64,000 nucleotides of DNA from Tetrahymena thermophila SB210. Its lineage: Eukaryota > Ciliophora > Oligohymenophorea > Hymenostomatida > Tetrahymenidae. The stretch covers positions 454,584 through 518,583 of the forward strand of contig NW_002476226.1 of assembly GCF_000189635.1 (NCBI RefSeq). The letters are read 5' to 3'. The notes beneath the pieces were generated by a model. It saw nothing but the letters and a program-made list of their open reading frames with translations, was not told the origin of the DNA and ran no database searches. A program made the translations under genes and the position numbers. The number at the start of each line of letters is the position of its first letter. The stretch's first letter is position 1. Below are positions 29,182-64,000 of this stretch, one piece after another.

Positions 29182-32100
29182 TCATTATTCTTACTTTTTA
29201 TTAGTTTCTTACTTTAAAGAAAGCTAATTAATTTATTAATATTCTGTAATTAATTGCTTTATTTCGAAGCTCTGTGTTGTGTTAAATTTATATTCTCTGC
29301 TAGGCGATTCAAATATTAAGTGAATGAGCTTAGGAAATACTTTTGTTGCCTTTAGTTCTTCATATTTAAATTAAAATATTTACTCTTTAAATTCAGGCCC
29401 TAATACATAAATCATATTATGTTTAATTCCAAGCCATACATTTTCTTTAAGATGCTAATTATCTCTAAGTGTATCCTTGTAAGTATTAACATAAAATTGA
29501 GTTACTCCAAATAACTTATTTTATTTAATTGCATTTATAACTACTAACTATGTTAGCTTTAACTTTGATTCCAATATTTATCTGGAAGTATATTTAGATA
29601 TGTCAACTATATTAGACTCAGGATTAGGCTAACTTTCTATTTTTGGAGATTTTTGATTACTTTATGTTAGTAGTTTGCTTTTCAATAGGTCGACTTTATT
29701 TAAAATTGATTGATTTTTCTCTTTTATTTTATCAATTTCATCATTAATCTATAGAAGGGTTTAAGATATTCCTATTATCCAAAAAGTTTCTTCTTTTGAA
29801 TTGAAAATGATATCAGGAAGTATTTCTTTCAGGGTATTTATAGGAAATTCCTAGCTGTTTCCTGAAATGCAACTTTCTTTGTTTTTAAAAATTTTTTCTG
29901 CTTATTATGGGTATTTTATTAAGATATAGAGAGCTGAAAAGAGAACATAATTCTTGAAGGAGAGTTTATATCTTTGCTGTTGAATGTTTTCAAAAATCTA
30001 AAAGCAAATTAAATTCAACCTGACAGGATCGTTTCTAATATCATATTCTTCTTATTAAGGCGAGAGCCACAAATATTTTTTAAAGACAATTGTATATCTC
30101 TCGCTAAAGTTAGAAACAAATCTCTTGAAAGTTCTCATGATGAAATTTTCATTTTTACAAATCTCTGATGTATATTTCCAAAGAGGAGTATTCCCTTCTG
30201 CTTAGGAATCATTAGCTTCAGGGTTTGGTGTATCATCATTTTAACTTTCTTGTGTATTATCTTAAATTTAATTCTAACCACTTGCTTATAAGCTTTAAAG
30301 TAATTATTGGTTATTTGCTAATATAATATCTTATCTACTAGCTCTATTTCCATTAGTAACAAGTACTGCATTGTTTTCTAAGCTATTTTAGTGGGGAAAT
30401 AGCATTTTAAATAATAATTCATCATCATCTAAAACTCTAAAATTTCCTTTTGAATCTTTTAGAAATATTCTGTAATCAAGATAGGATTTTAATTTGATTC
30501 TTTTTGCAATGCTAGCACAAATCTAAAAGCAGCGACTTTGAGAATTGATTTCCACTTCTTACTTGGAGCCATCTAAAAATTCAACATCAATTAAACATCT
30601 TTCATTTTAGCTCAGAGATTCAGAGTTATAGTAAGTAATAATAGAGGCTCTTTAATTCTTGCTTTTCCTAAAAAGTTTAAGCATTTCTGATGACGAAAGT
30701 GTTCCAATAGCTGCTAAGCTATTACTTTTTGACTTTTGCCTAGTTTAAAATTCTTAACCTAAAGTGCTTATTCTCTTTTCTGAACTTTATTAGTTTGGAT
30801 CTAATTTTTATTCTTCTTAATTGTTTATCTCTTCATCTTCTTAAAGTTTGCCATTATCCTCCATATTTTCATTTTCTTTTTATTCATCAGAGTCAGAATT
30901 AGAGTCAAAGTCAAGCAATTTTTACATGTTTTTGTCTCCCTCTTCTATGTTAGTTTTGTAAGGAAGGTCATAAAAATCACTAGGCAGACCTAAATCATTC
31001 AGTATTTCAGGCATTATAGATGACTCTTTAATTTTTTTCATGGTAAGAATCTACAAATTATTTTTATTTTTAATTAGATAAAGCAGCAAATATACCAAAA
31101 TAAATAATAAAATAATATAAAAAATGTATTCAAAAAAATATTTAATTCTAAAAAAAACTAAAAAGCAAAGAAATCTATCCACCTTCTTTAGAAAACTCTC
31201 GAAGTGTACCTTTCTTTCTTCAATTATTTTTGTTCTATGACTATTTAACCACGTCAGTCTTGTGCTGAAATGATCAATTTAGATGTCTTTTATATGATTC
31301 TTTATCTTTTTTTCTAAATTAGAAAGTTATCTGTATCTAACCCATATTTTTAGTGTGATGTTTAATATTTTTATTTCAGCCACATAAACTGTAAATTTTT
31401 GTATTTTAGTTGTGTTCCACTCTTCAGTTCCTAAGATATTTACTTCGATGTTATCTAAGTCATTATCCATTTTATCTTTACGTAGATTATTTATAATTTT
31501 ATCTATCTAGCTAATCAGGGTTTACTTTTTCTTTTCATCTTCAGCCATAAATGTTAAGGTATTGTTTGTTCCACTTATTTTAAAAAGATGAGTGAAATAC
31601 TTCATATCTTCCACGGGTTTAACTTTACTAGTGTGATTTAGGTAAAGCCATGTTAATGGTTTAGTAGACTCTTCATCGATTCCTTCTTAAACCAATATTA
31701 AATCGTTAAGGAAAGAAACAACACAACTTTTTTCTCCATCTTTGATCAAATATAATCTTTCTTCACTAATTTTTTATTTAAAATAGATTTAAATTTTGTT
31801 TATTATTATAAATATTTACAATTTAAATTCTCTCTTATTCTCTATAATGTTTAGCTAAAAATTTCTAAAAGTTTGAGATAATTCGCAAATTTTCTGATTA
31901 TCCAAATACTTTTGAATTTATGAGTTGATTTATTAGTTAACCTAAGTGAATTATTGCAAGCATTTTTAAGTCCAAATATAATCCTTATGATCTGTTGGTG
32001 TTTTTTCCAATAAAGTCTTGAATAAAAGCTCGTATCTAGGTATTCTTTATACAGGCAGGATCAGTAAACTGCTTATATTATCATTTTCGCTTTCAAATTA

Positions 32101-32694
32101 CTTTAAATAATCTCTGATATCTTTTCTTCCTTCCTTAAGTTTCTCCAAATATTACATAGAAACTTCAAAATTTTACATGTAATCTACATAGATTTTGAAA
32201 TAAGGAATCGTTACTTATATATATTTATCAAATACTTCCTGATTATATAAAGTAACTGGATATTTTTTATTGTTAAATGTGTAAAAGCTATAAACAGTAT
32301 CCGATCTTACTTTAATATATTCTAAAAAATCTTAGTTAAGCTCTAAAATTTGTTAAATATTACTAAATATTTTTTAAATATCTTGTTCATTATTTAAAAT
32401 ATTCATCATTTAACTCTTAAGAGTATTTTAAATGATCTATAATTTCGATGTATAAGTTTTTTCAGTGGCTACTAATTCTTTTATGATATTGATTCTTGTT
32501 TTAGCTTTTTTAAGATTTTTTTGATATTTATTTTTGTAATGCTTTATTATGAAAACTTTTGCAATTTTAGCAAATGCCTTCTCTCTTGCATCAGCTATGT
32601 TAACAACTTCTTTTTCTTCACCCTCGGGTTTTTCTGAAAAAGAATCAACAACTTATTATATGTCACTTCCTTAGTTGTTTGGATTATCTTCCAT
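29182..32694 (-). CDS. RhoGEF with PX and FERM modules (DH-PH-PX-FERM)
   Basis: Three exons: 32694-31820, 31765-31183 and 31050-29182; 1108 aa, stop 29184-29182. Residues ~68-265 are a DH (RhoGEF) domain: INIIKELVATEKTY (CR1) and LLILPVQRIPRYELLFK at ~210-226 (CR3). A PH-like segment follows at ~285-390. A PX-like domain lies at ~400-505, with RYRQLSNLEKKI and WLNSHRTKIIEERKVHFESFL. After an acidic linker, residues ~637-707 look like FERM F1 (DVEFLDGSKQEVEI), ~755-950 like F2 (DPVRLNLICFQIFENI) and ~985-1090 like F3 (ENVWLGIKHNMIYVLG). DH-PH would activate Rho-family GTPases; PX and FERM bind phosphoinositides and membrane proteins. Animal FARPs carry FERM before DH. The 54-nt first intron is in frame and AT-rich; the 132-nt second intron also happens to stay open. 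Confidence 0.82.
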
Positions 32695-36973: not shown

Positions 36974-38034
36974 TTCATCCAAAATAAATATCTTTAATAT
37001 ATTTTTTTATCAAGAAATAAAACTACCAAATTACAATTAAGTATTCTGTTTGTCTATTTTTGTATATTAATTCTACCTTTTACTCTAACTTTGTTAATTT
37101 ATTTTAAAATAAATTATAATTGCTTTCTATTTTTTTAAATAAGCTTTAATGTAAATTACAATCAGACACTTCTCTTTTTTATTTTTCAAGTCTAAAATTG
37201 AAAAAAAATTTAATTTAGTTTAATTTCATTAATATATTTTGCTATTTTAGAAAACTCGATTTTTTTTAGAGTCTAGTCTGTATTTATTAAAATACAATCA
37301 AAATAATTCATTTAATAAATTAATTAATTTCAAGCCAATAAATAACTTTTACAATAAAACAATTATTTAAAATTTATTCGAATGATAAGGATTAATAGAA
37401 AAAATAAATATTGTTTGATTTGTTTTAAAAATTAGTAGTTTTATTATTAACCTTCTTTAATATAATATTTTAAAACTTGTAAATTTTATTTTAGATAGAT
37501 TATTTACAAAATAAAATTTAACGTTAAAAATTGGTAGTTTGCATTTAATAAAATTAATGGTAAGCCTATATCTTTAATTTAATTAATGTTTTATTGATAA
37601 TTAATTAAAGCAGTTTATAATATTTCAACAGATTTAATGAAATAATTGGATAAAAACTCAGAAAAAAAAAAAATTAAGATTGGTCTGAAATATATTTGCA
37701 TGCATTACAATATATCTTTCTGAAAAAATATTTAATACTTTATGATTGATTGATTGGAAATGCTAGAGAATCAACTCAAATATTTAATTTATAAATTTAA
37801 GAGTTAGATTGAATGATTAAGGCTAATCATTATAAAATTATTAAACCAAATCAATAAATTAAAGAAGAATAACTTCAACTTAAATTAAAGAGTACCTACC
37901 TAAAAGCTTTATAGATTAGATAAATAAATATATATACATAAATATATATATTATAGTTTAAATTAAGTATAAATTTGTTTACAAGAAGATTCAAATATAA
38001 ATTAAAGGTTATTCAAGCAAAGAGTAAATAGTTT
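36974..38034. other. AT-rich intergenic region
   Basis: 1.06 kb between two plus-strand genes; no feature recognised. It should hold the kinesin gene's promoter. Confidence 0.4.
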
Positions 38035-41000
38035 ATGAATACAAGAATTCAGGTTGGAATACGCTTGCGTCCATTCCTTGATACAGAAATTGGGAAAGGT
38101 TATTAAAATTCAAAGATAAAAGTAGATAAATCTTAGGGAAAGATTAGCGTTTTCGATAACCACAGCAACAATAATAGAGTTTTTGAATTTGATCACATCT
38201 TTGATTAACAAACTACCTAGAATTAAGTCTATGAAGAGTGTAAGGTCACTGAAATGGTGGCTAGAGTTTTAGATGGTTTTCATTCAACTATATTTGCATA
38301 TGGATAAACAGGATCTGGTAAAACTTACACAATGGAAGGTAAGCACGAAAGCGGAAATTATGTATCTGACGAGATGAAAGGTATTGTTGCTAGAGCCTTT
38401 GAGGATCTATTTACTATGATACCTAAACTTAAATCATAAACAAATAAGGATTATAATGTTACTTGTAGCTTTCTTTAGATTTACAACGAAAAAATTTACG
38501 ATTTGTTGAGTCATCATTCTTAATTTGCAAAAAATAGTGATGTCAACAATACAGTAAATGCTAATTAATAAGGAGTAGCTGCTGCTGCAGCAGCAGGTAT
38601 TGCTCCTTAAGGATTAAAACTAAGATGGAATGCTAGAGAACAATTTTAAGTAGAGAATTTATTTGTGTTTGATATTAAAAATCCTAAAGAAGCTTAACAT
38701 TATTTTTTGCAAGGAGTTAAAAATCGTATAACAGCACAACATAAGCTAAATATGACTTCTTCTCGTTCTCATACTATTTTTACAATTACTGTGTAAACAT
38801 ACTCCTAGTAAGGAGCTCATGAAACAACATCAAAATTACAGTTGGTTGATTTAGCAGGTAGTGAGCGTATTTCTTTAACTGGAACTGAAGGAAAAATGGC
38901 TAAGGAATCAATTGATATAAATAAGTCTCTCTTTACACTTCGTTAAGTTATAACAGCTTTATCAGAGATAAATTAAAACACAAATAACAATAATGCATTT
39001 AATTCCACATAACCTATAGGGTAGACTGCATAGGGCTAAACATTAAGCACATAGCTACAGCAGACTTAGCAATTAGACTAAAATACAAAAATCCAACATA
39101 TTCCATATCGTGATAGCAAATTGACTAGTTTACTCAAATAAAGTATAGGTGGTAATTGCTATTGTTTGATGATGGCTTGCATAGTACCTAATGATGCTTT
39201 TTCAGATGAAAATATTTCGACTTTATTTTATGCTTCGAAAGCAACTTACATCAAAAACTAACCTGTTAAAAATGAAGATCCAAACAAGTTGATCTTAGCT
39301 GAAGTTAACAAATAAAATATTAATTTAAGGTCTGAGTTAGAGAAAGCAAACTCTCACATTGCATTTTTAACAGCAGCTCTAGAAAAGTCTGAGAAGAATA
39401 ATGCTATACTAAAATAAAGGAATGCAGAATTACTCAAATAGCTTGAAGAAAAACCAGGAAGTGCTAATTAACCTAAAATAGACTCAGAAGTAAAAGATTT
39501 CAATCAAACAGCAACTTCATTTTAAGTTGGTGGTGGGTTATCAGAATAATTTATGAAAGAATAAATTCATTTTTAATAATAGTAAGAATAATTTAAGCTA
39601 TAGCAACAAGCTTAAATTCAGCAATAAAAGCAATTTGAATAATAAATGATGATGAAATTCTCCTAAAATGGATAAAAGCAAAATGAATAAGATCCTAGCG
39701 ATGCTTCGACAGCTTTTAATTAAGCTCACAATTACGAATCTATCAGATAGAGCATACCCTTTACAAATACATAATATTAAAAGTAATAAACAGGTATTGG
39801 GTTTGTGAGACACTCTGTAGACACTCCAACAAATTCAAATGCTATTAAAAATCAATAATATAATACTAGCTAGTAATAAACTTAAGCTAACAATGAAAAC
39901 AAGCTTTACTACACATAGATGGATTATGATAACTTTAGTGACAGACTAATTGAATCAATAACTCTTGTCAGACAGCTCCTCGAAAGTAACAAAGAACTTC
40001 GCTAATAAACTGATGATTATAAATAAAAGGCACAATCTTGTGAAAGAGAATTATCTGATTTAACAGCTGAAAACTAAGAACTTAGAGAGTAGCTTGAATA
40101 ATTTACATCATAAAAAGGAATTAAGGTAACTAGAAACAATTCTTCATCTAAAGAAAATCGTAAAAATTTGACAAGAAGAAATACAGCAAACGATGAAGAG
40201 AAAGAATATAATCAAGATCTTAGTGAAAACGATTAAGTCTAATAAAATTTATAATTATAAAATTAAGAAAGTGATGCATAGAAATAATAAAAGCATGCTA
40301 TTGGTGGCAGCATTCCTCCGAGATATCCTAAAAAGAAAAAAACGGACAATAACTAATACACAGACGATTAAGATATATAGGACATATAGGAGCTGGTCCA
40401 CGAAGAAAATTTAGATACTTAATAAGCTGATATGAGCATAAGCAGTCTTCAAAGAAATGTAAATAAAACACAAACACAACAATCATAAAGAGGTAAAAAC
40501 AACAATAATGATGTTTAGAATAACAATAGCTATCATAATTAAACTAAAAATGAATTAATCCAAGAAATTCTAGAGCTTCGTCATAACTAGTTGATTTTAG
40601 AAAAGAAAATAAAATCATATGATGCTGATAGAAACTAAATAAAATCTTCATAAGGGCAAGCTAATATATCTGCAGGAAATAATAATATTGTCAATTCTGG
40701 AATATCTTCAAATAGTGCAGGTAAAAACTAGTAATAAATGACTCCTAATAGTAAGTAAAATTATGTTTTTTATAGTAGCAATAAGAAGAGAGGATCTTCT
40801 CAAAATTAATAATAATTACCAAAATCTAACAACAAAAGCTTGTCTATGTAACTCTAAGATGATTTCGCTCCTTCATAAACTCTCCACTCAACACCCATGA
40901 CAGCAACAAGCAGCTTGAGTGGCACAAAAGGAGTAAATTATTTAAATAGAACATAGTAAGAATTTAATATAAACAATTCAAATCATCCTTCATCTACAAC

Positions 41001-41700
41001 AGCAGCTTAAAATGCTCAACATTCAAGCTTAGATGTAAATAATGCAGCTTTATATACTAACAAGTAAGGGATGGATTCGATACCTACTAATTTTGGAAGA
41101 TATACCTACTATTAGCAAAATTTTCATAATTTAGATAAGCTTTAATAACAATAAATGATTAAATTTTAACAACCTTAGAATTAAGCAAATTAACAAGAGA
41201 ATTATAAATTCCTCTCAACTGGAAGAAATACTCTTTCAAATATATCTAGTTAATATTAAGATTTTACAAATGAATCACCTATAATACAATCTAATGACCA
41301 AAACTAAAAAAGAGTACCTAGCTAAGGAGCTCCTTCTGTAAAATCTAAGAGATCCAATAGTTTAACAAAGAATCAGATTAATCTATTAAATAATAACAAT
41401 AATAACTAAATAAATAATAGTAACAATAATTAAAAAGGAACTTATGATTTTTATCAAGGAAATATAGGTAAGGAGTAAATAATTATAGGAAACCCAAATA
41501 CTGGAATAACATATACAAAGATTAAAAATGCTTATCCCAACAGTGGTAATAGCAATGGCAGTAATCCTGCAGCAATTTTAAACTCATCTAGCAATGATGA
41601 AAATTCAAATAAATTAAAAAACACTCAGCTAACTCAAGATTAAAATAAATTAAAAGGAAAAAGTGGCACATCTGCAAAAATAAATGTAGTTAATAATTGA
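38035..41700 (+). CDS. Kinesin-like protein with N-terminal motor
   Basis: A single exon of 1222 codons, ATG 38035 to TGA 41698-41700; 1221 aa. The motor spans residues ~4-400: VGIRLRPF at the start, P-loop GQTGSGKT at 90-97, switch [10 protein letters not shown] near 239, switch II DLAGSER near 272, then [13 protein letters not shown]. It moves on microtubules using ATP, and the N-terminal motor position predicts plus-end motion. A coiled coil follows (~405-465), then a long Gln/Asn/Ser-rich tail with a second coiled coil near 640-690. The motor has two insertions: an Asn/Ala-rich one before [12 protein letters not shown] and a Gln-rich one before HIPYRD. I cannot assign a kinesin subfamily with confidence. 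Confidence 0.93.
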
Positions 41701-53406: not shown

Positions 53407-56400
53407 TCAAGAGAGACTAGGGAAATCTTAGTCATTTAAATAAGGTTTGCCTCCTCTGTTATTTTAGTTATTTTTAATGTAGTTATCGTTACTGTTGTTA
53501 CTCATGCTGTTGCTAGGGTTGTGCTTTCCTTATTAGTTTCTATGGTTGTACATTTAGTTATTATTATTTTGAGGATTGTTAGCTTGGTTTGTTCTATTAT
53601 TATTATAATCTGGGTTGTTGTATCCTCCTTAGTTTTAATTTCTTTGGTAGTCATTTCTGTAGTTATTGTTATTTTATGCCATACCGTTGTAGCCATTATT
53701 TTAATTTTAGTAAACGTGAGCACCTCCAGCCTTATAATTCTGACCCACGTTTGTTGAATTATTTTTTCTATGATTTTACTAATTATTGTTAACCATTCCT
53801 TAAACACCGTCTTGAGCATACTAATTAGAATTTCTATTATTGTTATTCATATTACCTTAACTAAGTTATTATTTGTTTTGCTTTTTGCCTAAGTGGTATT
53901 AAGATAGTTATTCAATTTGTAAGAATTACTATTGCTATAATTATTGTTGTTATTGCTATCTTTATAACTATTATAAAATATATTTATTAGCATGTGAGTC
54001 ATTAGGATTATACTACTGGTATTACTAATTATTTAAATTTCCTTATTTGCCTTACTATTATTGCTAGTATTGTAGTTATTGCATTAGTAAATTTATTTAA
54101 TTAAAACTCTGCTATTGCTATTGCTGCTATTATTATTAAATTATCTATTATTACTGCTACTGTTAGAATTGTTATTATTATTACTGTTGCTATTGTTGTT
54201 GATGTTGCATCATTTATTAGCTTCTGTAAAAAGAAGCAATCTAAGGATTCTTAAGCAAATTTTACATGTTTTGCATCAATTATTGCTATTATTACTAAGT
54301 ATTAGCAACATTCTGTCCTCCTTATCCTTGTTATGCGTACTACATTTAAAGAGCCAAGAGTTGCTACTATACTTTTGGGTCTATTCTAACTTATTAGTTT
54401 ACTTATTACCCTTGTAAAAGCTAGTTTTGTTATTGTTATTGTTGCTATTACAACAAATACATTTACTACCACTCATTTTTGCTTTGTTCTTGTTAAATCA
54501 AATCTTTTACATGATTTACATATATTTTAGTGTAGAGTGTTAAATCTTTGTATTTAATCCAGTACAAACTTCTACTGTGAGCTACTTCTGTAGCTGCAAA
54601 ATGTTCTTTCCAACTGTCCATCTATATCGAGTTATAAGGACCTTATTTTTCACCTTTCATGTCCTTATAAACCCAAATAGGTTCTTAGGGGTTTACTTGT
54701 AATAGATAAGCACAAGCTTAGAAGTAATTTCCTTTTTCTTCTTCTTGGTAAGACATTAATTCAGCTATCTTTTCAATTTCTTTTCTCTCTTTTTCTTTTC
54801 TTTTTTCTTCTTATTCTCTGCGTTCTTAGTCTGTAGTTCCTTAAAAGAGTGCTTCATAAACCTTTTATTTTATGTCTTCAGGATCTGCTTAATTAACTAT
54901 TAACTTTTCAAGTTGGCTCTTTTCTTCGTCGGATTCTTCTTTATTTTTATCTTAGAAATTGTCATCATCTTCTTCCTCTTGCTCATTTTATTCTTGTTCA
55001 TCATCTGAATTCTTGTATAAGTAACTATTTACATCTTACTTTGGCATTTTACCAAATATATTAGTAAAGTTTTCATCTTCATAATCCATATTTAAGAATT
55101 GATTATCAAAGCCTCCAAACCCTCCAATTGATGTAATGGGTTTTTGGTTACCATTCTAATTATGATTTGAATCCATATCATACTTCTAATTGTTATTAAA
55201 TTCTTCTGCTTTTTAGTTATTATCTCTTAAGGTTTGAAGGAAGGTAGCCTTGGGTCCGATGCTGCTTATTTCTTATTAGCTTTGTTCTACCTATTTTTGT
55301 TGAATTTGCTTGCTGTTATCAGGATAGTAAGGCTCGTCTTACTTTGTATTAAAAGTTTCATCATTATCCTCATCTTCATCATCTTCGAGGTCATCTTCAT
55401 CATCATCTGCATCTTCAAAAGCATTAGCAATAACAGTTTTATTATTTATTTAACGGGCTTAAGTAGTATTGTCTTTAGGTTATACAGAGGTTTCGCCAAA
55501 GGCCTCCAAATTTTTATCATCGTCATCTTCATCTTCATCATCACCATTTTACAATTCTTCTTATTGGTTTTTTTGCTCTTCTTCGAATTTGATGAGCTGT
55601 CTTTCGAACTCTTTCTTCTTCTCATTTTCTTTGGCTAATCTCTCTAGTTTCATATCTATATCTTCGTATTCTAAATCATAGTCAGCTTCTTGTTTTTATG
55701 CTTAGTCATTTTGCTAATTAGAGCCACTTAATAGACCAGATAACATGTCATTATTATTGCTATTATTATTGCTTTAAATTGAAGCTATAAATAAACTTAA
55801 AGCATCTCCTTAATTTTCTGTGCTCTATTATTGCTATTATTGTTATTGTTGTTATTATTACAAAAATAAATCTAATCCATTTGTAACCTATTCAGGTTAT
55901 TTTTATTTCTATTGTTATTACTGTCTTTGGAATTACTTTGAATTGTTGCTGTCTTAATCTTTGTTTCTTTTGTTGTTTTTATCTTTCATTTCTTGTGCAT
56001 ACTTTTCCTTATCAAATGATTTAAATTCGAAATTAAACTGTTATTCGTCTACTTCCCAATTAGGTTCTTCTTCTGAATCGCTTTAATTCTTTTATTCATT
56101 TTAGACAGTAGGTTGCTCTACAGCAGGTTAAGCAAAGGTTTACAAGGCATCAGTTGGCTTTTTAACAACCTTTTCGAATGCCTCTGCAACATTAAAGCTA
56201 TCACAGTAAGACTTATCAGTAAAAATAGGTGCCAAATGCTCACGGACAAATATCTAAGGGAATTGAGTGTGCAAGCCTTTAAGCCAATCCTAATTTAATT
56301 CAAATCCATTTCTACGACTGAGGCTATAATCGTTGTAAATTTAAATGAATTTGTTCTTTCCAAGTCCCTTCTTTCTTGTGGTATTGCTCAAGTCATCTTT

Positions 56401-56643
56401 GAAAGCTCCTCCTGAGCGAGGTCCTCCAATATTCCTTAGAATTCCCTATCCTTCTTCATTATTTCTTCCTTCTTCCTTCTTTAGATAACTAGTTGGGTTA
56501 TTTCCTCTACCTTTATAACTGGAATAAGGCTAGCTATTGTACTCTGATCTGCCTTAGTTACTAGAGGGACCAGTTCCGTTACTCTAAGTATTTCCTATTT
56601 ACTGGTTGGGTTTTTTCAATCCTTTATCTTGTTTGTTGCTCAT
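53407..56643 (-). CDS. GYF-domain protein with acidic and Gln/Asn-rich regions
   Basis: A single exon of 1079 codons, ATG 56643-56641 to TGA 53409-53407; 1078 aa. Residues ~656-705 form a GYF domain: IWVYKDMKGEKQGPYNSIQM then DSWKEHF, with the W-x-Y, QGP and M-x-x-W signatures. GYF domains bind proline-rich peptides and occur in translation-repression (GIGYF) and spliceosomal (CD2BP2) proteins. The N-terminal ~150 residues are Gly/Arg/Ser-rich and end in a folded-looking segment. Acidic blocks and poly-Gln runs precede the GYF domain. The C-terminal 350 residues are Gln/Asn-rich and end in DFPSLS. A GIGYF-like mRNA regulator is the best guess, but no clear eIF4E-binding motif is visible. Apparent frames on the plus strand here are shadows of these low-complexity codons. 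Confidence 0.88.
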
Positions 56644-57818
56644 TAAATCCTTTATCTTTAAATTTGCAAGGAGATCTACGTTCTTTACTTTGTTAATTTA
56701 AATTTTTCAAAAAGATTCGTAAACAATCTCCTAGAGTTTTCACAATAACTATGTGTTTATGTTTGAGTCAGAATAATTTTCTGAATAACTACTATTCTCC
56801 TTTCCCTAAAAAGGACTTAAAATATATGAAACTAGCCTTAAAGCCTTGCTAATGTAAATTAAATGTTTCCTATTAGTTTTTTGCAATGTTTTTGTATATT
56901 TTTCAATACCTTCTCTTTATTTTCTTCTATTATTTTATTAAGACTCTTTTCTTTTCTTTCTTATTTTAATATAATAAACTTCTCAATACAAATTTTATAA
57001 AACACTCGATTCATTTCCACTTATAATTACCTCTTTAAATATTTTCTGTTTCCCTCTTCTCTTCATCCTCCTCTTCAAGATTATTTGATTCCAAAATACA
57101 AAAATTCATCGCAATTTATTTCTTTCCTCTCATATTATTTAAAATTAATAATATAAGTAAAAACTTTTCTAGATGCTTTTTCTTCATATACTATTCTTTT
57201 AATCTTTTAATCGAATCTCAAGCTAAGAATTTTATTTATTTATTTTTTTTTTGTTTCTTTGTTTGTTTTTTATTTTTTTTCATCATACTTTAATGAAATC
57301 TTAACTTTTTCCTCTCTTTTAGTTTGCAAATAATTGTTTTATAGTCAACCAGTCACTCATTATTCGAAAAATTTCATTAAATATAAATTCACATTTTTAA
57401 AGTAAATTAAAGTGTGTTATGCAAATACTAAAAAATATTATTTTTCTAAAATTTTTATTATTAAATTGTTAAAAAAATATATCTAAATAACCTAAATATA
57501 ATTTAACTAAAATTTTTAGAATTTATATTTACAAACAAAATATATAATATAAACTTATCTAAAAATTATTTTTCATGAAAAAAAATTTAATAAAAATAAA
57601 TGTATGCTTTTCAAATTTTTTATAAGAAATTATTTTTATAATATTGTTTATAATTATAATTTTATTTTTAATTAGGATTTATTTTATTTTTTGCTTAAGT
57701 TTTTTTCTTTGATGTGCTTTAGGTTTATTCTTATATGTGATTAAGTTTTATTTTTGCTTGATTTTAAGTTTTTTTCTTGCTTATTTTAGGTATTTGTTTA
57801 TTTAGTTTTTTTCTTATT
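56644..57818. other. AT-rich intergenic region with degenerate repeats
   Basis: Upstream of the GYF gene, probably with its promoter and 5' leader. The last part enters the repeats at ~57650-57900. No other feature recognised. Confidence 0.4.
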
Positions 57819-63797: not shown

Positions 63798-64000
63798 GGG
63801 GTTGGGGTTGGGGTTGGGGTTGGGGTTGGGGTTGGGGTTGGGGTTGGGGTTGGGGTTGGGGTTGGGGTTGGGGTTGGGGTTGGGGTTGGGGTTGGGGTTG
63901 GGGTTGGGGTTGGGGTTGGGGTTGGGGTTGGGGTTGGGGTTGGGGTTGGGGTTGGGGTTGGGGTTGGGGTTGGGGTTGGGGTTGGGGTTGGGGTTGGGGT
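63798..64000 (+). repeat. Telomere, (GGGGTT)n
   Basis: About 34 uninterrupted GGGGTT units reach the window end, G-rich strand running 5' to 3' toward the end as expected of a right telomere. This is the Tetrahymena/Glaucoma hexamer. The join to AT-rich sequence is abrupt, with no degenerate repeats, which is typical of telomere addition at a macronuclear chromosome-breakage site. Confidence 0.98.

Follow-up and report, generated by a model that had tools for sequence, protein, structure and literature searches.

A predicted ciliate Rho exchange factor with PX and FERM-like modules, and a second gene of the same layout in its genome

The 64-kb stretch of ciliate DNA analysed here (the window) carries a minus-strand gene whose single product is predicted to follow the order DH-PH-PX-acidic linker-FERM, and the same order recurs in a further gene, located on a different contig of this genome. 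The initial annotation had read this order, within one gene, from sequence motifs; the motifs it quoted for the DH, PX and FERM blocks are present in the translation, and its order agrees with that of the second gene, although the PH domain is weak. We consider it probable that the product serves the ciliate as a guanine nucleotide exchange factor (GEF) of the Dbl type, switching on a Rac-type GTPase at particular membranes. As predicted, the architecture places DH-PH, PX and FERM in a succession for which neither FARP nor SNX proteins offer a precedent, and an old duplication has left it intact, so such cells may have their own way of activating Rho switches at selected membranes. No publication on a DH-PH-PX-FERM protein was found by title and abstract opening; prior mention is possible, for example in the RhoGEF architecture survey of Fort and Blangy (2017), which is cited for RhoGEF families in the available part of a Dictyostelium review (PMC8305917).

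Gene model and chromosomal setting

The window is the last stretch of contig C278, in a genome of 101 Mb and 445 contigs. Because a long (GGGGTT)n telomere run (63798-63995) closes both window and contig, the gene lies about 31 kb from the end of a macronuclear chromosome. We take the telomere, the low GC of the window (about 0.18-0.30) and the use of TAA and TAG for glutamine to fit the macronuclear chromosome of a Tetrahymena-like ciliate. A code-6 open frame runs along the minus strand from 32811 to 29182, and the gene model initially annotated within it, with a start ATG at 32694, a stop TGA at 29184-29182 and two introns, proved exact (Table 1). The 71 in-frame TAA/TAG codons (58 + 13) are read as glutamine, and the single TGA stands at the gene end.

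Base composition separates the introns (GC 0.07 and 0.15) and flanks (0.14 and 0.19) from the exon pieces examined (0.24-0.31), and removal of intron 2 raises the Pfam PX match from 23.9 to 32.0 bits. The 5' end of intron 2, GTGGAT, differs from the GTA start shared by intron 1 and the linker intron of the second gene. As both introns are multiples of three and contain no in-frame TGA, the frame stays open without splicing (1170 aa), and an unspliced mRNA would be read through with inserts in PH and PX. Escape of such stop-free introns of 3n length from stop-based quality control is an idea from work on Paramecium; introns 1 and 2 of this gene should likewise escape it. Elsewhere in the window, an open frame of 1295 aa on the plus strand (37813-41697) contains a kinesin motor domain (302.6 bits), and one of 1099 aa on the minus strand (53410-56706) partially matches GYF (28.6 bits against a cut-off of 25.7).

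Table 1. Features of the predicted RhoGEF gene, in window coordinates
Feature	Position	Strand	Remarks
Whole gene, ATG to TGA	29182..32694	-	3 exons, 1108 aa spliced; ciliate code, TAA/TAG = Q
Exon 1	31820..32694	-	
Intron 1	31766..31819	-	54 nt, GC 0.07, GTAAAT...TTAG; absent from second gene, gap-free alignment at junction
Exon 2	31183..31765	-	
Intron 2	31051..31182	-	132 nt, GC 0.15, GTGGAT...TGTAG, inside PX; absent from second gene, gap-free alignment at junction
Exon 3	29182..31050	-	End of PX, acidic linker and whole FERM region in a single open frame
DH (RhoGEF) domain	31924..32487	-	aa 70-257; Pfam RhoGEF
PH domain (putative)	31477..31842	-	About aa 285-388, bounds by eye; split by intron 1; weak by sequence
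PX domain	30982..31455	-	Spans about aa 396-509, interrupted by intron 2; aa 430-499 matched by Pfam
Linker	30613..30960	-	aa 517-632; GC 0.29, coding-like; no in-frame TGA
F1 lobe (predicted)	30400..30594	-	RA_2 match aa 639-703
N/Q-rich insert between F1 and F2	30124..30384	-	aa 709-795; largely missing from second gene
F2 lobe (predicted)	29716..30039	-	aa 824-931; FERM_M / DdMyo7_FERM matches
F3 lobe (predicted)	29221..29556	-	IRS/PTB match aa 1014-1093; talin F3 match of two-gene profile

DH and PH domains

A Pfam scan of the spliced protein, with eight families up to E 10, returned RhoGEF at 123.7 bits (E 1.3e-35), well over its cut-off of 27.6. When the single protein was compared with the PDB, its DH matched intersectin (53.8 bits), FARP2 (48.7 bits, after two intersectin chains) and PREX1 (41.8 bits), and a DH profile built from both genes matched the DH structures of intersectin, PREX, FGD6, FARP2 and others. 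E78, K226 and N257, aligned with intersectin, are kept in both genes; these we take to be the CR1 glutamate, the CR3 lysine and the last-helix asparagine, that is, GTPase-contact or catalytic positions. The adjoining PH segment scored 13.9 bits when cut out, below the Pfam cut-off of 25.1, and its counterpart in the second gene gave no Pfam match up to E 1; the PH assignment is weakly supported, by position, by PDB alignments running from DH into PH, and by conservation.

Retention of the three presumed contact positions in both genes, together with the presence of Rac partners in the genome, makes it unlikely that the protein is a pseudo-GEF, in which the DH-PH fold is kept, exchange is lost and the molecule serves as a phosphoinositide or partner adaptor within a Rac complex. 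That alternative could appeal to the roughly 27 extra residues early in the DH domain of the second gene, and to FARP1/2, whose DH-PH-PH structures are described as autoinhibited and for which a pseudo-GEF role is raised in the accessible text of PMC6041286.

PX domain and linker

The PX match of the spliced protein (32.0 bits) also passes its Pfam cut-off (21.6), and the two-gene PX profile matches the PX structures of CISK, nischarin, SNX16 and SNX27 in the PDB (E 3.1e-4 to 0.0031). R435, Y436 and R476 are kept in both genes and align with the conserved R-Y and R of CISK and nischarin PX, while the loop lysine occurs as LPK in the second gene and the window protein has only R461 nearby. This pattern (R-Y ... 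K ... R, comprising R435/Y436, the loop lysine and R476) is presumably the phosphoinositide pocket of PX domains, the residues of which appear to be largely kept. The initial annotation's idea of a protein sensing phosphoinositides twice is a possibility to which the PX may contribute through these residues. The linker that follows is acidic in its first half (19 D/E and 6 K/R among 58 residues) and basic in its second (4 D/E and 10 K/R among 58 residues).

FERM region

Profile searches bore out the initial annotation with respect to RhoGEF and PX, both over their cut-offs, but not for PH or for any FERM model, all of which stayed below cut-off in the window protein. The sub-threshold FERM-related matches nevertheless fall in F1-F2-F3 order: RA_2 (aa 639-703, 23.2 bits against a cut-off of 27) and Ras_bdg_2 (aa 644-725, 19.4 against 27) at F1, DdMyo7_FERM (aa 824-921, 23.3 against 27) and FERM_M (aa 826-931, 19.3 against 23.8) at F2, and IRS/PTB (aa 1014-1093, 17.8 against 22) and PH_SLA1 (aa 1016-1093, 16.8 against 27) at F3. 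Searched against the PDB, the two-gene FERM profile matches talin-1 with E 4.8e-4 for the whole chain, with an F3 stretch (E 0.026 alone) and a collinear F2 stretch below threshold, and myosin-VIIb at F1 with E 0.013. By eye, the F2 lobe has a DPV-L-L--Q pattern in common with talin. Five of nine shuffled versions of the FERM region were scanned and none gave a FERM-type Pfam match up to E 0.1, the one match being to an unrelated family (PCNA_C, E 0.026).

Structure prediction, which had been proposed as a check on the domain assignments, was uninformative. AlphaFold2 run without relatives modelled the FERM region with pLDDT 36.6, F1 following the strand-helix order of ubiquitin-like folds and F3 containing strands, whereas the F3 piece modelled separately was all-helical at pLDDT 62, the other four models reaching 37.6-43.9. 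An all-helical model does not correspond to a PTB fold and, taken literally, would count against a PTB-like F3; we give both predictions little weight.

It seems to us improbable that the 3' part of the gene encodes no FERM, comprising instead an unrelated RA-like domain, a helical region and a PH/PTB-like domain in chance order. Such a view accords with lobes that each fall below cut-off in the window protein, with the uninformative predictions and all-helical F3 model, and with a weak hhalign result for the two RhoGEF FERMs against three of the genome's four other FERM tails (probability 3%, E 0.014; two versus three sequences, contig C437 left out). It fits poorly with the F1-F2-F3 order found in both genes, the RA_2 match over cut-off in the second, the shared F2 pattern, talin matches that span F2 and F3 in order, and the shuffled controls.

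A second gene with the same layout

The whole-genome RhoGEF search located the second DH on another contig (C169:609130-609738), in a gene whose predicted order, DH-PH-PX-acidic linker-FERM, is that of the window gene. In this predicted model, of which the start codon is uncertain, DH-PH-PX occupies one frame and F1-F2-F3 another, the two being joined by a predicted 110-nt intron inside the acidic linker. RhoGEF (138 bits), PX (29.5 bits, cut-off 21.6) and RA_2 (28.8 bits, cut-off 27) pass their Pfam cut-offs in the second protein, while IRS (16.8 bits), RA (16.8 bits) and FERM_M (11.1 bits) fall below theirs. Identity between the two proteins is only 35% overall (39% in DH-PH, 44% in PX and 31% in FERM), so the duplication looks old, and maintenance of the order through an old duplication argues against both a gene-model error and two genes meeting at the linker. 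Queries of the genome with DH-PH and with FERM each found these two genes only, the FERM query detecting close relatives alone, as it missed the genome's myosin-type FERM tails.

Separate genes for a DH-PH-PX GEF and a FERM protein, kept apart by a stop or promoter missed in the linker, are highly improbable, for although the linker shows little similarity and FERM gives weaker matches than DH and PX do, the linker has no in-frame TGA and an exon-like GC (0.29 versus 0.14 and 0.19 in the flanks), the second gene repeats the order, its two frames connected through a single predicted intron in an acidic linker of its own, and the FERM query, within its reach of close relatives, finds just the two RhoGEF genes.

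Just before the DH of the second gene (locus L003) lies a relaxed IQ-like stretch, IQSYGKMILQRKKY, which is degenerate in the window protein; calmodulin control is possible, and Pfam gives no match there.

Comparison with known domain architectures

Like the window protein as predicted, FARP1 and FARP2 hold DH-PH and FERM in one protein over a long linker, and the DH of FARP2 ranks high among the PDB matches of the window protein (48.7 bits). The initial annotation set the protein apart from FARP by its C-terminal FERM and its PX, and this distinction holds: FARP has an N-terminal FERM and two PH domains, and PX goes unmentioned, in the portion of PMC6041286 available. The 30 PDB matches listed for the FERM profile built from both genes (E up to 10) include none to a FARP FERM. 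A rearranged FARP was rejected as a description of the protein, with which domain order and PX disagree.

SNX17, SNX27 and SNX31 have a PX followed by a FERM toward the C-terminal end, and the SNX27 PX matches the two-gene PX profile (E 0.0031 in the PDB search). Since these animal proteins also place PX before FERM, the window protein is better described as a PX-FERM-like tail carrying a DH-PH head than as FARP in rearranged form. The sorting nexins, one of which (SNX27) is called metazoan-specific in the text seen of PMC8083963, lack DH-PH, whereas the window protein has a DH, and about 120 aa separate its PX from its FERM. Among the 30 PDB matches listed there is no SNX FERM, talin and myosin VII leading, and the Pfam SNX17-27-31 FERM model found no match in a scan of both proteins. 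A tail of SNX17/27 type was also set aside: the order agrees, but the FERM matches talin and myosin and no SNX.

Proteins of the FGD family have the layout DH-PH-FYVE-PH. They resemble the window protein, as read here, in pairing a DH-PH head with a phosphoinositide reader, and the FGD6 DH matches our profile; they differ in that the reader is FYVE instead of PX and in lacking FERM. A 2010 survey found RhoGEF strongly associated with FYVE and seldom co-occurring with PX, and listed RhoGEF and FERM_M both among the PX-associated domains; in the part of that survey available, all three domains together are not described (PMC2837644).

Other FERM tails occur in the same genome on contigs C60 (MyTH4-FERM, beside a myosin motor), C437 (MyTH4-FERM), C129 and C112; FERM_M is over cut-off in three of the four scanned, unlike in the window protein, and RA_2 also matches. 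Tetrahymena myosins with FERM or MyTH4 domains have been described before, in the section available of PMC2375034, which agrees with these tails. The tails share with the RhoGEF pair FERM matches of the myosin VII/talin kind and differ in being motor tails where a motor is seen (C60 only). Derivation of the RhoGEF FERM from these tails is unsupported by the hhalign probability of 3%, a comparison of low power with two against three sequences. The F1 lobe of the C437 tail (L051:2581-4032) matches the SNX17-27-31 F1 FERM model below cut-off (20.6 bits against 26.7) and RA_2 at 40.8 bits.

Rho signalling genes of the genome

Most knowledge of Rho circuits comes from animals, fungi, plants and amoebae, groups in which the many GEFs make it hard to tie one GEF to one membrane. 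Naegleria, for instance, is credited with 21 RhoGEFs and 25 RhoGAPs in the available text of PMC6881465. According to the accessible part of PMC7600811, sub-clades of alveolates lack Rho genes; an older table, in the accessible part of PMC2651865, has Rac present in every eukaryote group but Apicomplexa and Kinetoplastida, so Racs in a ciliate would not be new in themselves. What is new, as far as found, is that this ciliate has just two DH GEFs, both with PX-FERM tails, which if true would offer a tractable case of how membrane identity steers Rac.

At least two DH places, the window gene and the C169 gene, were returned by the whole-genome RhoGEF search, with no addition when E was allowed to reach 10; the search ran exon by exon and control genomes gave no match, so that its sensitivity is unmeasured and its counts are lower bounds. 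Recall was likewise partial for the companion domains: the 32 places listed for PX do not include the window gene's own intron-split PX, and the FERM_M search, with a single place, overlooked the FERMs of both RhoGEF genes as well as the tails on C129 and C112. A Rac protein query listed 30 places, two of them with Rho-like exons, the remainder being taken as other, unclassified small GTPases. The Rac-type gene on C130 is 78% identical to Rac over residues 57-96 and that on C199 65% over residues 56-95; the best PDB match of each is Rac1 (228.8 and 167.6 bits, respectively), and both products, with exons joined by eye, have a Ras family Pfam match and a CaaX-like tail. Each of these loci (L041, C130:311700-315200; L042, C199:460400-463900) has several short introns, apparently at the same places by eye. 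A further Rho candidate on C198, with the exact string DTAGQEDYE, was rejected by eye, its frames being those of a Ras/Rap-type GTPase without the Rho insert; this locus (L040, C198:342500-346000) combines the Rho-like string with a CNLI tail.

At least one RhoGAP place over cut-off was found (C13, 46.7 bits), with one more below it. The DOCK-type GEF model PF20421 had no match in the genome, a result without meaning because the model found nothing in its controls. Pattern searches for relatives gave 514 matches in viral contigs and 578 in contigs of prokaryote genomes, none confirmed, ciliates not being expected in either set. A bolder reading, possible but tentative, is that the DH-PH-PX-FERM pair is ciliate-specific and supplies all Dbl-type GEF input to a Rho circuit of very few members (two Racs and about one RhoGAP), such that all Dbl-driven Rac activation would be read through a membrane code of PI3P type and FERM type.

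Proposed role

Because E78, K226 and N257 of the DH and R435, Y436 and R476 of the PX are kept, we propose a Rac GEF placed by its PX and FERM modules, for which we infer exchange, lipid, partner and membrane alike. The DH would load GTP onto one or both of the Racs encoded on C130 and C199, while the PX, perhaps with the PH, would dock the protein on phosphoinositide-marked endomembranes, most likely through PI3P; the endosome, phagosome or feeding-vacuole surface are candidate membranes, a guess from the PX. On its flexible tether, the FERM may bind the tail of a membrane protein or another GTPase, and could either localise the GEF or fold back and hold it off until bound, as a form of autoinhibition. 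In SNX27 the PX serves for PI3P, the FERM F1 lobe for Ras and F3 for NPxY cargo, according to the available part of PMC8083963, and in FARP the FERM is assigned to membrane and receptor binding and the DH-PH-PH unit is autoinhibited, according to that of PMC6041286.
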